Shown: positions 138-4,588, numbered from the stretch's first letter. The stretch is 64,000 nt of DNA from Erysipelotrichaceae bacterium (GCA_017473265.1 JAFULQ010000002.1:1-64000); one strand, 5' to 3'. The notes: generated by a model not told the origin, from the letters alone. Numbers and translations are program-made.

Positions 138-165
138 CAAAAAATGGCAAGCATTACTGCTTACC
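138..165 (-). terminator. Terminator of the nucleotidyltransferase operon
   Basis: On the minus strand GGTAAGCA-GTAA-TGCTTGCC forms an 8-bp hairpin with one wobble, followed by a U-run (139-144). The TAA stop of the preceding gene lies inside the 5' arm. Confidence 0.85.
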
Positions 166-1492
166 ATCCATATTTATCACTACCCCAAGGTTTAACTTCA
201 ACTTCTTGTTTAGGCATAACCAATTGATTATCTAAGATATCCTTTTGAATTGTTAGATTTGGTCCTAATGCACAATGAGAACCAACTTTTACACCAGGAT
301 AGAATACATTACAAATACCTGTACGAGTATAATCACCAATACATACAATATTCGTATTCTTATTTGCATAGCGTTTAGCACCCACTTTTTGAGAGACTAA
401 CATATCATCAAATTTCAAGATACCGGTTACACAACCAGCCGCAATATCTACATATTTACCAACTACACCATAGATTTCACTACCATGTACTTGTGCCATA
501 CCTGTAAATGATACTCCACCAAATTCTGCAGAGAATCCCATCTTATTTTTAGGACCTACTACACTGCAGTCATTGATTTTACAATTATCTGTAACTACCG
601 AACCACTACCAATCACGCAATTAGGATAAATAATTGCGCCATCAGAAATTGTTACATCATCACCAATTTCACAATTTCCTTTGATAATAACACCATCACC
701 AATTTTACTATTTTTACCAACTTTGATAAAACCACGAATAATTGCTTTATCAGAAATTGTTGCTGTTTCATCAATGCAATTGCTATACATGGTTTTTACA
801 TATTGTTCACAATACCATTGATTCGCATCCATGATATTCCATGGGAAGTCCATATCAATGACATCTTCACAAACATGCGCATGAATGTTAATACCTTCAT
901 TCATAGCTAAAAACATTGTATTTTCTAAATGGTATTCATGATCTGGCATTTGTCCACAATTTACAGAATCAAATCCTAAAGGTGTAATATCAATATAAGA
1001 TAACAATTCTTTAGTTAGTTTATAAACACCACATAATCGCGTATTCGCATAACTACCTCTAGAATGTCCATATACACAAACCACTTCATTATTTTCTACT
1101 TTTGCAGTTAAATAATCTTGTGTTGGTAAATATTCACCTGTTGGTTGTACTAATACACAGTTACCTTCATGAGCTAATACTGCATCCACAGTTTCTTCAC
1201 TAACTACAATATCACCATAATAAACCAAACAATCGTCTATACATTCTTGTTCTAATGCTTGTTGTAAGTTATTACTCATCACAAAACGCACATCACTTCT
1301 ACCTAATGTAGAAATTACATCTTGCGCTTGTTCATTTACTACAACTACAATTTCATCAACTTTACCTTCTAATTGTTTAACAATACGTACAATATTTGGT
1401 TGATTCCCTACTGGTAAAGTACATTTTTGTCGATGAGAGGCAAAAGGAAACATTTTGTTTCCTTTTCCACCAGCTAAAATAATCGCCTTCAT
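161..1492 (-). CDS. Sugar-phosphate nucleotidyltransferase with hexapeptide-repeat domain (GlmU-like)
   Basis: 443 aa. The N-terminal ~230 residues are a nucleotidyltransferase fold with the motif LAGGKGNKMFPF near residue 6; the usual G-T-R triplet is N-K-M here. The C-terminal ~200 residues show hexapeptide repeats (V/I-G-x-x-x periods) of a left-handed beta-helix, as in GlmU and in archaeal bifunctional sugar-1-phosphate uridylyltransferase/acetyltransferases. It probably makes an NDP-sugar, perhaps with acyl transfer; the substrate is unknown. The ATG at 1492 overlaps the SIS gene stop (TAATG), implying coupling; an upstream TTG is less likely. It is the last gene of an operon behind an amino-sugar-type regulator, so a GlcNAc-related role is plausible. 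True cell-wall GlmU is not certain because of the altered signature and the catabolic context. Confidence 0.75.
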   Translation of the reverse strand: MKAIILAGGKGNKMFPFASHRQKCTLPVGNQPNIVRIVKQLEGKVDEIVVVVNEQAQDVISTLGRSDVRFVMSNNLQQALEQECIDDCLVYYGDIVVSEETVDAVLAHEGNCVLVQPTGEYLPTQDYLTAKVENNEVVCVYGHSRGSYANTRLCGVYKLTKELLSYIDITPLGFDSVNCGQMPDHEYHLENTMFLAMNEGINIHAHVCEDVIDMDFPWNIMDANQWYCEQYVKTMYSNCIDETATISDKAIIRGFIKVGKNSKIGDGVIIKGNCEIGDDVTISDGAIIYPNCVIGSGSVVTDNCKINDCSVVGPKNKMGFSAEFGGVSFTGMAQVHGSEIYGVVGKYVDIAAGCVTGILKFDDMLVSQKVGAKRYANKNTNIVCIGDYTRTGICNVFYPGVKVGSHCALGPNLTIQKDILDNQLVMPKQEVEVKPWGSDKYGW

Positions 1493-2223
1493 TATTTCCA
1501 ATAACCGTAATATTTATCAAATAATTCATTATTGTATTCATCAGCACCATCGACATTAGAACTTCTAAATACAGGAGGTTGATGACCATCTTTAACTAAT
1601 TGATCAATAACAGTAACAATCAAAGTATTAGCTAAAGCAATACCAGCAAAATCACTTGTAGGACCTGTAGGAACATTGAAATTGTCTACATAGAAATTTG
1701 CATCACCTTTATCAGCTACGTTATCTAATACAACATCTGCACATTCAAATAAACGTTTTCCACTTGAATGACGAGAAGTAACTTCAGCAGAGTGTTTCAT
1801 AGAAGTCATAGCGATAACTTTTGCGCCTTTTTTCTTAGCTTCAATAGCCATTTCCACTGGAACAGCATTACGTCCAGAGTTAGAAATAATCATAATTGTA
1901 TCTTTTTCATCTACTTTATATAAATCTAACATTGCTTTTGAGAAACCATCTAAACGTTCTAACCATGTAGATTTGTTAGGCATTTCATGTAACATTAATT
2001 CTGGAGGTAAAATCGCTTTAACATAACCCAATCCACCAGCACGAATATAAATTTCTTCAGCTACCATATGAGAATGTCCTGAACCAAATACATAGAAACG
2101 ACCACCATTTTCACAGCTTTCAACCACTAATTTTGCAGCTGCTTCAATATTTTCAACTTGTGTTTCTACGATTTCATCTAATTTTGCTTGTAATACATCT
2201 AAATACTTCTTTGTTACTGACAT
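1492..2223 (-). CDS. SIS-domain sugar isomerase-family protein
   Basis: 243 aa. This is a single SIS domain (SIS_2 type) with YVFGSGHSHM near residue 45 and IISNSGRN near 113, the phosphosugar-binding glycine/serine loops. The family includes phosphosugar isomerases, deacetylating enzymes and sugar-phosphate sensors. Start ATG with GAGGA nine bases upstream; it overlaps the ceramidase-family gene by 10 bp and abuts the nucleotidyltransferase gene, so all three are translationally linked. The inferred role is conversion of a phosphosugar or amino sugar within this operon. The exact substrate cannot be read from sequence. Confidence 0.75.
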   Translation of the reverse strand: MSVTKKYLDVLQAKLDEIVETQVENIEAAAKLVVESCENGGRFYVFGSGHSHMVAEEIYIRAGGLGYVKAILPPELMLHEMPNKSTWLERLDGFSKAMLDLYKVDEKDTIMIISNSGRNAVPVEMAIEAKKKGAKVIAMTSMKHSAEVTSRHSSGKRLFECADVVLDNVADKGDANFYVDNFNVPTGPTSDFAGIALANTLIVTVIDQLVKDGHQPPVFRSSNVDGADEYNNELFDKYYGYWK

Positions 2224-3482
2224 AATTCTTTTCCTCTTTCTTTCATTTCTTTTGATAACAATTCTCCAACACCTTTTTCAAATGGAGAAGACATAGCTTC
2301 ATAATATCCTTTTTCATAAGAATATTCATCTGCTATATAAATATAATAACCATTACCATATCCAAACACTTCAATACCCTCATCTTTTAAAGGTCTTCCT
2401 AAAGTTGAGAACATTTCACCTGGAGTAACAGCAATTACCACATTTTGAAGACGCATCATTGTATAATGCACATTTTCTTCTTTAATACCTTGTAACGCTT
2501 TTGCTAGATTAACCGCTGTTTTAGCACCTTCCGCAAAAGATGCAATCACACGTAATTCACTAGCACTTAAATTTTGTTTCTTCGCTTCTTCCAATTGTTT
2601 TTCATATTCAGTCAATTGGGCCTCTTCCACTTCAACTGGACGAACTTTACGAATTGGAAGAGTTACATTATAGGAATTCATAAATACATCATTGAATGTT
2701 CCTTCATATACAGGATGTTCTAAAGCTTCTTCAATTCCTTTAATAATTCTTTCAGCATAAATATCTACTTGTTCAAAGCTACTATCAATTCTTGTAAAAC
2801 GAGAACTAATATCACCACAACAACTATTCACAAACATCACCATATCATAGTCCATATCACGTTCTACAGCATATGGAAAATCTGCAGTCATTTCAATATT
2901 TCCAGGACCAGTTACCGTTGGATGGCATGCATAATTATACAATAAGATTTCTCTTCCATCTTTTCTTCTAAAATTAAAGACTAATAGCGAATCATCACCA
3001 GGTAAGGATGGATCATGTCTTTCAGTTCCCACATTTTCCACTTTACCTCTAGCAATAACAACTTCACTTTCAAGCATATCTTCACTAGCATTACGAACTG
3101 CTAAAGCAATTTTATCCGCAATCATTTCAATCAACGGCATATCCGTCATACCAAATATACCTTGCATTTGCTCAAATAATCCTTCTGATGTATTAAATAC
3201 ACCACTTGGACCAGCATGTGTATGCGTCGCTACAATTGTAATATGTTCTTTTTTAATACCTAATTCTTTTACACGTTGATATACACAATCTATTAATAAT
3301 GGATCAATCGCAATAATATCGCATTGAGCCAATACAAACAATTCACCATCTTGGTTCATCAATAAGACACGTGTATATAAGTCATCATGCACTTCTTTCG
3401 CAATTCTCTCCATTTCATAACCACATAAAGCTCTTGGTAATTCTGGAGTAATGCATTGACGATCAAAGCCTAAAGTTACCAT
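2214..3482 (-). CDS. Neutral/alkaline ceramidase-family hydrolase
   Basis: 422 aa. It resembles the N-terminal catalytic domain of neutral/alkaline non-lysosomal ceramidases: HTHAGPSG (residues 87-94), a third zinc-type His in YNYACHPT (His187), and NSCCGDIS (219-226), where the last Ser fits the family nucleophile. There is no signal peptide, and the usual C-terminal immunoglobulin-like domain is absent, so it is probably a cytoplasmic amidase rather than a secreted ceramidase. Start ATG 3482 has GGGAGG 7 bases upstream; a GTG at 3497 lacks a site. First gene of the operon, under a TTGACA promoter and a UTRA operator. The inferred substrate is an N-acylated amino sugar or amino alcohol, not shown. 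Confidence 0.7.
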   Translation of the reverse strand: MVTLGFDRQCITPELPRALCGYEMERIAKEVHDDLYTRVLLMNQDGELFVLAQCDIIAIDPLLIDCVYQRVKELGIKKEHITIVATHTHAGPSGVFNTSEGLFEQMQGIFGMTDMPLIEMIADKIALAVRNASEDMLESEVVIARGKVENVGTERHDPSLPGDDSLLVFNFRRKDGREILLYNYACHPTVTGPGNIEMTADFPYAVERDMDYDMVMFVNSCCGDISSRFTRIDSSFEQVDIYAERIIKGIEEALEHPVYEGTFNDVFMNSYNVTLPIRKVRPVEVEEAQLTEYEKQLEEAKKQNLSASELRVIASFAEGAKTAVNLAKALQGIKEENVHYTMMRLQNVVIAVTPGEMFSTLGRPLKDEGIEVFGYGNGYYIYIADEYSYEKGYYEAMSSPFEKGVGELLSKEMKERGKELCQ

Positions 3483-3501
3483 AATAGCACCTCCCACATT
3501 T

Positions 3502-3529
3502 ATTTTAAAGCATAATTCATACTTGTCAA
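3502..3529 (-). promoter_or_regulatory. Promoter of the ceramidase-SIS-nucleotidyltransferase operon
   Basis: On the minus strand there is a perfect -35 TTGACA (3524-3529), a 16-bp spacer and TAAAAT (3502-3507). The adjacent palindrome lies just upstream. Confidence 0.7.
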
Positions 3530-3532
3530 TAC

Positions 3533-3550
3533 AACTTGTATATACAAGTT
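3533..3550. promoter_or_regulatory. Operator palindrome for the GntR/UTRA regulator
   Basis: AACTTGTATATACAAGTT is a perfect 18-bp palindrome. Its GTATATAC core is typical of HutC/UTRA-branch GntR operators (NagR/DasR-like). It lies between the two divergent promoters, so one dimer could control both directions. Confidence 0.75.
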
Positions 3551-3559
3551 AATATTGTA

Positions 3560-3568
3560 TGCTATAAT
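3560..3568 (+). promoter_or_regulatory. Extended -10 promoter of the GntR/UTRA gene
   Basis: TG-C-TATAAT is an extended -10 with no good -35. The operator ends 9 bp upstream, over the place where a -35 would lie. Confidence 0.6.
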
Positions 3569-3590: not shown

Positions 3591-4292
3591 ATGAAAAAAT
3601 CACAAATAGTAAAAGAATATATTCTACAAAATATTGCCAATGGTGTTTATCCAATTGGTCATATGATAGAATCAGAACCTGTATTATCCGAGAAATTAAA
3701 GATTTCAAGAATGACAATACGCGAAGCCATTCGTGATTTAGTAGATGAGAATATATTAGAAAAACAACATGGGCGTGGAACTTTTGTTTTAAAACAACCG
3801 AAATTTAAAGGTTTTCAGTGTGGTATTGGATTCTCAGAAGAAATGATACGTCATGGTATGACACCTTCTGCAAAAAATGTAATCTTACAAGAAACACAAG
3901 CAACAGAAGATATCGCAAACGATTTACATATTCCAGTTAATGCAGCTATTTGGAACATTAAACGTGTTCGTTTAGCAAACGATATTCCAATGGCTTATGA
4001 AGATGAATATTTCTCAAAAGCTATTGTGCCAAATCTTACTGAAGAAATCGCAAATGATTCCATCTATAAATATCTATCACAACAAGGTGTTGAATTCACT
4101 TATGCAGATCAAATGTTAGATGCCGTATTAGCAAGCGATGAAATTGCAAGCTTATTAGAAGTACCAGTAGGAACTCCATTGATTCGCATGTACATTATTG
4201 CACACTTAAAAAATGGTACCCCATTTAACTGTGGTACCACCTATTATAGAACCGATAATTATCAACTATCACAAACAGTTTTTAGAAAATAA
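3591..4292 (+). CDS. GntR family transcriptional regulator with UTRA effector domain
   Basis: 233 aa. The N-terminal ~70 residues are a GntR winged helix (EPVLSEKLKISRMTIREAIRDL, with recognition helix SRMTIREAI). The remainder is a UTRA ligand domain of the HutC subfamily, which in NagR/DasR binds phosphorylated amino sugars. Start ATG 3591 follows AAGGAGGA by 5 bases; upstream in-frame ATGs lie in the promoter. Divergent from the ceramidase-family operon across the palindrome at 3533-3550, so it probably represses that operon and itself. The ligand is inferred to be a sugar phosphate. Confidence 0.85.
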   Translation: MKKSQIVKEYILQNIANGVYPIGHMIESEPVLSEKLKISRMTIREAIRDLVDENILEKQHGRGTFVLKQPKFKGFQCGIGFSEEMIRHGMTPSAKNVILQETQATEDIANDLHIPVNAAIWNIKRVRLANDIPMAYEDEYFSKAIVPNLTEEIANDSIYKYLSQQGVEFTYADQMLDAVLASDEIASLLEVPVGTPLIRMYIIAHLKNGTPFNCGTTYYRTDNYQLSQTVFRK

Positions 4293-4319: not shown

Positions 4320-4354
4320 ACAATTATATTAATATTATTAAAGGAGACATAATT

Positions 4355-4588
4355 ATGGCAAAGAAAGATTTTGATGTATTAGAAATCGTTGAAAAAGCGG
4401 CGAAAAAATTATTAAGTGACGAAAAATTACAAGAACAATTCAAAAAAGAACCAATTAAAGCATTAGAAAAATTATTAGATGTTAATCTACCAGATGAATT
4501 ATTAGAACCAGTAATCGATGGTATCAAAGCTAAATTAGTAGCTGACAAAGTTGGCGATGCTACTAAATTATTAAAAAAATTATTCTAA
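4355..4588 (+). CDS. Small helical protein, weakly resembling Nif11/NHLP leader regions
   Basis: 77 aa, Lys/Leu/Glu-rich, predicted mostly helical. I do not recognise a named family. The stretch with FKKEPIKALEKLL followed by VNLPDELLEPV resembles the leader part of Nif11/nitrile-hydratase-like precursors (F..L..DP..AL...G..LP). No Gly-Gly cleavage site, core peptide or modification enzyme is nearby, so a stand-alone helical protein is equally likely. AAAGGAG lies 9 bases before the ATG. The gene ends at a strong shared terminator. Confidence 0.75.
   Translation: MAKKDFDVLEIVEKAAKKLLSDEKLQEQFKKEPIKALEKLLDVNLPDELLEPVIDGIKAKLVADKVGDATKLLKKLF

Follow-up and report, generated by a model that had tools for sequence, protein, structure and literature searches.

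The window that we analysed, a 64,000-nucleotide stretch of Erysipelotrichaceae DNA beginning at a contig edge, carries a real and conserved operon of three genes from known families. These genes, here termed CER, SIS and NTP, are transcribed in that order from the minus strand (161-3482), and the regulator gene REG diverges from them on the plus strand (Table 1). We put at roughly 0.5 the probability that this is a self-regulated operon for the cytoplasmic processing of an N-acylated amino-sugar 6-phosphate. The general reading, that N-acyl amino-sugar phosphates are processed, is supported by gene context. To this extent the N-acyl amino-sugar salvage proposed in a preliminary description of this DNA is supported, by the conserved trio, a predicted cytoplasmic hydrolase of the ceramidase superfamily, and neighbouring phosphotransferase system (PTS), NanE and NagA genes; the reaction order, the isomerase and the NDP-sugar step of that proposal are not supported.

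Table 1. Features of the operon and its control region (window positions).
Feature	Position	Strand	Description
NTP	161..1492	-	Nucleotidyltransferase domain and left-handed beta-helix (hexapeptide) acyltransferase-like domain, GlmU-like
SIS	1492..2223	-	Sugar-isomerase-domain protein, PRK02947/UPF0309 family, NagS-related
CER	2214..3482	-	Neutral-ceramidase-family zinc hydrolase, 422 aa, predicted cytoplasmic
REG	3591..4292	+	GntR/UTRA (HutC-type) regulator, 233 aa; PF00392, PF07702
Promoter-like site for CER-SIS-NTP	3502..3529	-	TTGACA-16-TAAAAT, 11/12
Second operator-like site ACTTGTCAATACAA	3521..3534		Imperfect; adjoins palindrome; putative
Perfect 18-bp palindrome AACTTGTATATACAAGTT	3533-3550		Probable REG operator
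Promoter-like site for REG	3541..3568	+	TATACA-16-TATAAT, overlaps palindrome

The most likely translation starts, as read from the sequence, are ATG codons at 3482 for CER, 1492 for NTP and 3591 for REG; a longer CER reading frame extends to a GTG at 3497. With these starts, the CER and SIS genes share 10 bases, SIS and NTP share a single base (TAATG), and the open reading frames lie where the preliminary description had placed a trio of overlapping genes divergent from a UTRA regulator. As an opposite-strand gene follows NTP in two sister species, the operon very probably terminates after NTP. Both the GntR winged helix-turn-helix and the UTRA domain of REG are recognised by Pfam profile match, and in one sister species the protein has equal length and 94% identity. 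A small ORF of about 77 aa lies downstream of REG (4354-4588).

The perfect palindrome reported earlier between the divergent genes is present, and it is the sole match with three or fewer mismatches in the window, where 0.12 would be expected. Its core, TGTATATACA, is found 5′ of the same genes, once each, in eight other loci (L050, L051, L052, L059, L061, L062, L065 and L069), a conservation that we read as phylogenetic footprinting for a putative local, self-regulating operator. The promoter-like site for CER is strong and abuts the palindrome, and a palindromic version of the second operator-like site, TCAACTTGTCAATACAAGTTGA, occurs at L077 upstream of the same genes. When the genome was searched with the palindrome for a wider regulon, allowing up to three mismatches, nothing rose above background outside the operon; two further sites resemble it at three mismatches, a count not above that of the reversed-pattern control. 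REG would act as a repressor, its site being the palindrome that abuts or overlaps each of the two divergent promoters, and its effector would probably be the sugar phosphate.

The trio accompanied by REG occurs in three species belonging to the window genus, in two species of genus g48, and in g38 and g35, which makes four genera of one family. The three genes are therefore conserved together elsewhere, and the preliminary reading survives on this point. L107 (genus g30) has REG, SIS and NTP without CER, and pairs of CER and SIS without NTP occur in further genera, including another family of the same class (L140). SIS lies within four genes of CER and on the same strand for 19 of the 66 CERs collected, where a rough estimate from about five SIS genes in the window's genome gives a chance expectation of about 1; the CERs were gathered by similarity to the window CER, sister species included, and such co-occurrence counts are not independent. 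Most loci have CER without SIS. Fifteen SIS proteins whose genes neighbour CER, or NTP in L107, form a clade apart from the SIS proteins found beside MupG (support 88/92), and most of the SIS proteins of the 19 pairs belong to it. Short CER-like proteins occur in 52 of 145 sampled genomes of the family, and a scan of named genomes gave one relative, in a water-buffalo Erysipelotrichaceae MAG. NTP is rare, being present in 2/392 genomes of a phylum sample (E 1e-50) and in 15/315 of an order sample (E 1e-40), the latter count including a distant branch linked to MupG. In the literature searched, which took in few subscription papers, we found no description of this gene combination.

SIS matches PF13580, NCBIfam PRK02947 (E 2e-95) and the structures 3CVJ (E 5e-90) and 9EOL (E 1e-46), the last being the NagS protein SCO4393. 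Streptomyces NagS is a dehydratase that turns GlcNAc-6P into 6P-chromogen I, and in the Streptomyces route it is followed by a deacetylase step; its ligands include GlcNAc-6P and ManNAc-6P, whereas GlcN-6P is not bound (PMC12680351). The two proteins share the SIS_2 family and eight of nine mechanistic residues (H53, S54, R64, E94, S119, S121, D179 and N228); SIS differs from NagS in residing in another operon and in having Thr in place of S91. The word isomerase, as applied to SIS previously, thus reflects the name of the domain, whereas the characterised relative is a dehydratase. Since NagS, the nearest characterised relative, does not bind GlcN-6P, SIS by analogy probably acts before deacylation rather than after it, if the need for an N-acyl group holds, and this argues against the proposed order of deacylation followed by isomerisation. 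Of four NagS homologues tested for GlcNAc-6P dehydratase activity, the three from outside Streptomycetaceae showed negligible activity or none; they come from Clostridium (33% identity; negligible activity), Paenibacillus and Acidothermus (PMC12680351). Given the result with the clostridial protein, the substrate of SIS may differ from that of NagS. About five SIS genes are present in the window's genome. Another SIS gene of the same genome is an immediate neighbour of NanE, of the ManNAc-6P epimerase family (L015:6808-8295), a further link between SIS proteins and phosphates of N-acyl amino sugars. At L085:11073-13295 and at L170:9799-12039, three different members of the SIS family are encoded in tandem.

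CER matches PF04734 (E 2e-11). When a profile built from seven CER members was compared with solved structures, only neutral ceramidases matched above noise, namely 2ZWS of Pseudomonas aeruginosa (E 2e-21) and 4WGK, human ASAH2 (E 3e-20). The score on the NCBIfam ceramidase equivalog is 20 bits, below the cut-off of 1200. With the neutral/alkaline ceramidases CER has in common the catalytic domain, with the THTH, xHPT and PGE motifs, GDxS, the Tyr ligand and a conserved Arg. The positions aligned with what we take to be the zinc ligands of 2ZWS are largely kept among the 66 members: His87 in 65, His187 in 63, Glu356 in 60 and Tyr382 in 63 (ATG numbering). The serine and the residues next to these positions are likewise shared by most members. 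The zinc and Ser motifs described earlier are thus borne out by profile alignment to 2ZWS and 4WGK.

CER also departs from the ceramidases in several ways. It is about 420 aa long compared with 646-688 aa in the ceramidase structures, it is encoded in sugar operons, and it appears to be cytoplasmic. The CER N-terminus is not strongly hydrophobic and no export signal or membrane segment was apparent, which supports the cytoplasmic location and lack of a signal peptide suggested earlier. Where the human ceramidase motif is GDVSPN (PMC6952831), CER has GD-x-S-[ST]-R-F-x-R; in the window protein (GDIS-S-R-F-T-R) GDxS is retained and PN is replaced. The signature for the whole family is GD-x-S-[STN]-R-x-x-R, and its two arginines, at positions 228 and 231 beside the serine (ATG numbering), are present in 64/66 and 59/66 members. 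Retention of the zinc residues together with these arginines fits an anionic substrate, and we infer that CER is an amidohydrolase for an anionic, probably phosphorylated, compound, with ester or other bonds also possible. A structure prediction made with two input sequences reached a pLDDT of 36, too poor for inspection of the pocket. Ceramidase-like proteins at L075:7119-8291 and L076:1040-2170 have Gln for a zinc His, Asn for the conserved Ser and Ile for the Tyr ligand, and are possibly inactive or re-purposed. Next to the trio, another ceramidase-like protein, shorter at 384 aa, is encoded at L052:3689-4843, where it has no Pfam match, and at L069:10930-12084; in both loci its gene is followed by those for a PepV-like M20 dipeptidase and then a HAD phosphatase.

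NTP matches the NTP_transf_3 and Hexapep profiles, the structures 2GGO/5Z09 and the archaeal GlmU-like family TIGR03992 (E 6e-41), on which its 140.7 bits fall below the curated cut-off of 292.1. The two-domain layout and the left-handed beta-helix (LbH) histidine are those of archaeal-type GlmU; this residue, His339, is invariant in 16 aligned CER- or MupG-type relatives and aligns with the 2GGO histidine. NTP differs from GlmU in its linkage to CER or MupG and in its nucleotidyltransferase loop, which in the window reads GGKGNK..K, with Lys at the position of Arg in the GlmU motif G-x-G-x-R...K. The loop is present in the window, L050, L051, L082 and L107 and destroyed in L052, L058 and L069 (e.g. 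DPKDDKMFPF, PPASDAMFPF), with Asp positions missing in some. Thus three of eight trio-type orthologues have lost it, with the helix domain, His339 and a C-terminal YGW end retained. Among the genes of the trio loci we recognised none for a phosphomutase. These observations speak against the NDP-sugar step of the preliminary description, and NDP-sugar formation does not appear to be a conserved part of the module. Loss of the loop in some orthologues with retention of His339 makes acyl transfer the more likely conserved function. A second, more distant branch of the NTP family sits in MupG operons.

In related bacteria, the gene order at L058 and L069 is NanE, EIIB, EIIC, EIID, EIIA, CER, SIS, NTP, with REG divergent and an M20 dipeptidase-like gene after NTP; L069 also has a second CER before the dipeptidase-like gene and a HAD phosphatase after it. 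EIIABCD, NanE and an M20 dipeptidase-like gene share the operon with the trio in g38 and in one species of g48. The g35 operon holds EIIABCD, and the L082 order is REG, EIIB, EIIC, EIID, CER, EIIA, SIS, NTP. Among 62 CER loci, neighbours include a mannose-type PTS (15), NagA (4) and NanE (3), and L088 brings NanE, NagA, GPI, ManA, PTS and CER together. A neighbouring protein at L141 and L147 resembles the YdjC/ChbG carbohydrate deacetylase, as judged by a look at the sequence rather than by profile. The PTS, NanE and NagA context suggests N-acylated amino sugars that are imported and phosphorylated at C6. Components of NanE-NagA-NagB catabolism stand beside CER in relatives, whereas CER, SIS and NTP lie outside that known route. 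The operon of the window genus has no transporter genes. Three mannose-type PTS loci of genome G000 were considered as part of the pathway; they have neither the operator nor CER nor a SIS of the PRK02947/UPF0309 family, and look unrelated.

If the general reading is correct, the sugar would, in the relatives, be imported and phosphorylated by the mannose-family PTS of the same operon. SIS would bind the N-acyl sugar 6-phosphate and open its ring, with elimination or isomerisation as in NagS. CER, as a zinc amidohydrolase that has the ceramidase fold and two additional arginines, would take off the N-acyl group of the same or a linked phosphosugar, and the hexapeptide domain of NTP would then acylate the freed amine. 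Orthologues with an intact loop, the window NTP included, may also activate a sugar 1-phosphate. More tentatively, and at odds short of even, we propose that gut Firmicutes have turned the ceramidase fold to a new use, as an amidohydrolase that acts in the cytoplasm on N-acyl amino-sugar 6-phosphates brought in by a PTS. The enzyme would parallel NagA and would work with a NagS-like SIS and a hexapeptide acyltransferase in a pathway, so far undescribed, of acyl exchange or elimination. Were this true, gut bacteria would have a second enzyme family besides NagA for N-acyl sugars, and many annotations of short ceramidase-like proteins, named after a lipid enzyme, would be misleading. For the SIS family, in which we found no characterised protein other than NagS, there would also be a testable second substrate.

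Four other explanations were weighed against this one. A linear salvage, with deacylation by CER, isomerisation of the free amino sugar phosphate by SIS and NDP-sugar synthesis by NTP, would suit the gene order CER-SIS-NTP and the loop retained in the window genus and in L082/L107. We regard this as unlikely, because the deacetylated sugar phosphate is not a ligand of NagS, L052, L058 and L069 have lost the loop and kept the remainder of NTP, and the trio loci have no recognised phosphomutase gene. Alternatively, the operon could encode the 6P-chromogen I pathway proper, as known from Streptomyces, with SIS dehydrating GlcNAc-6P or ManNAc-6P and CER serving as the dedicated deacylase of the product, a role that NagA has there by promiscuity. 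The near identity of the NagS active site (eight of nine residues, the ninth S to T), the deacetylase that follows NagS in Streptomyces (PMC12680351) and the NanE gene in the operons of L058 and L069, whose product links ManNAc-6P and GlcNAc-6P, are consistent with this idea. It is nevertheless quite unlikely in view of the negligible or absent activity of the Clostridium, Paenibacillus and Acidothermus homologues on GlcNAc-6P. A lipid substrate is highly improbable: CER keeps the zinc residues and serine of a ceramidase, but for it to act on ceramide or another N-acyl lipid the recurrent proximity of its gene to those for PTS and amino-sugar enzymes would have to be incidental, and its short length, the arginines flanking its serine and the lack of an apparent signal or membrane segment also weigh against such a role.

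The remaining explanation is cell-wall salvage, in which SIS would resemble the MurNAc-6P etherase MurQ and CER would cleave an amide in a sugar that derives from muropeptides. Within the order, MupG operons do contain relatives of NTP and SIS, reminiscent of MupG/MurQ/MurP cell-wall sugar recovery (PMC6262408), and the more distant NTP relatives are found there with MupG, GH4 and PTS genes. A SIS of the PRK02947/UPF0309 family stands in L111-L113 where L108-L110 have MurQ, and genomes G000, G019 and G038 are without a full MurQ. The trio loci, unlike those recovery operons, have no MupG or MurQ. Moreover, MupG is absent from G000, G019, G096 and G038, the CER-linked SIS proteins form their separate clade, and in G498, G501 and G144, where SIS adjoins MupG, MurQ is present elsewhere too. 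Cell-wall salvage is thus very unlikely in our view, and a MurNAc route is disfavoured for the window genus, as G000 has neither MupG nor a full MurQ. Processing of an N-acyl amino-sugar 6-phosphate remains our preferred reading. In the NTP-MupG-SIS operons themselves (L111:911-4238, L112:893-4122 and L113:5235-8490), it is possible that the NagS-family SIS is a functional replacement for MurQ or provides an extra step in MurNAc salvage.
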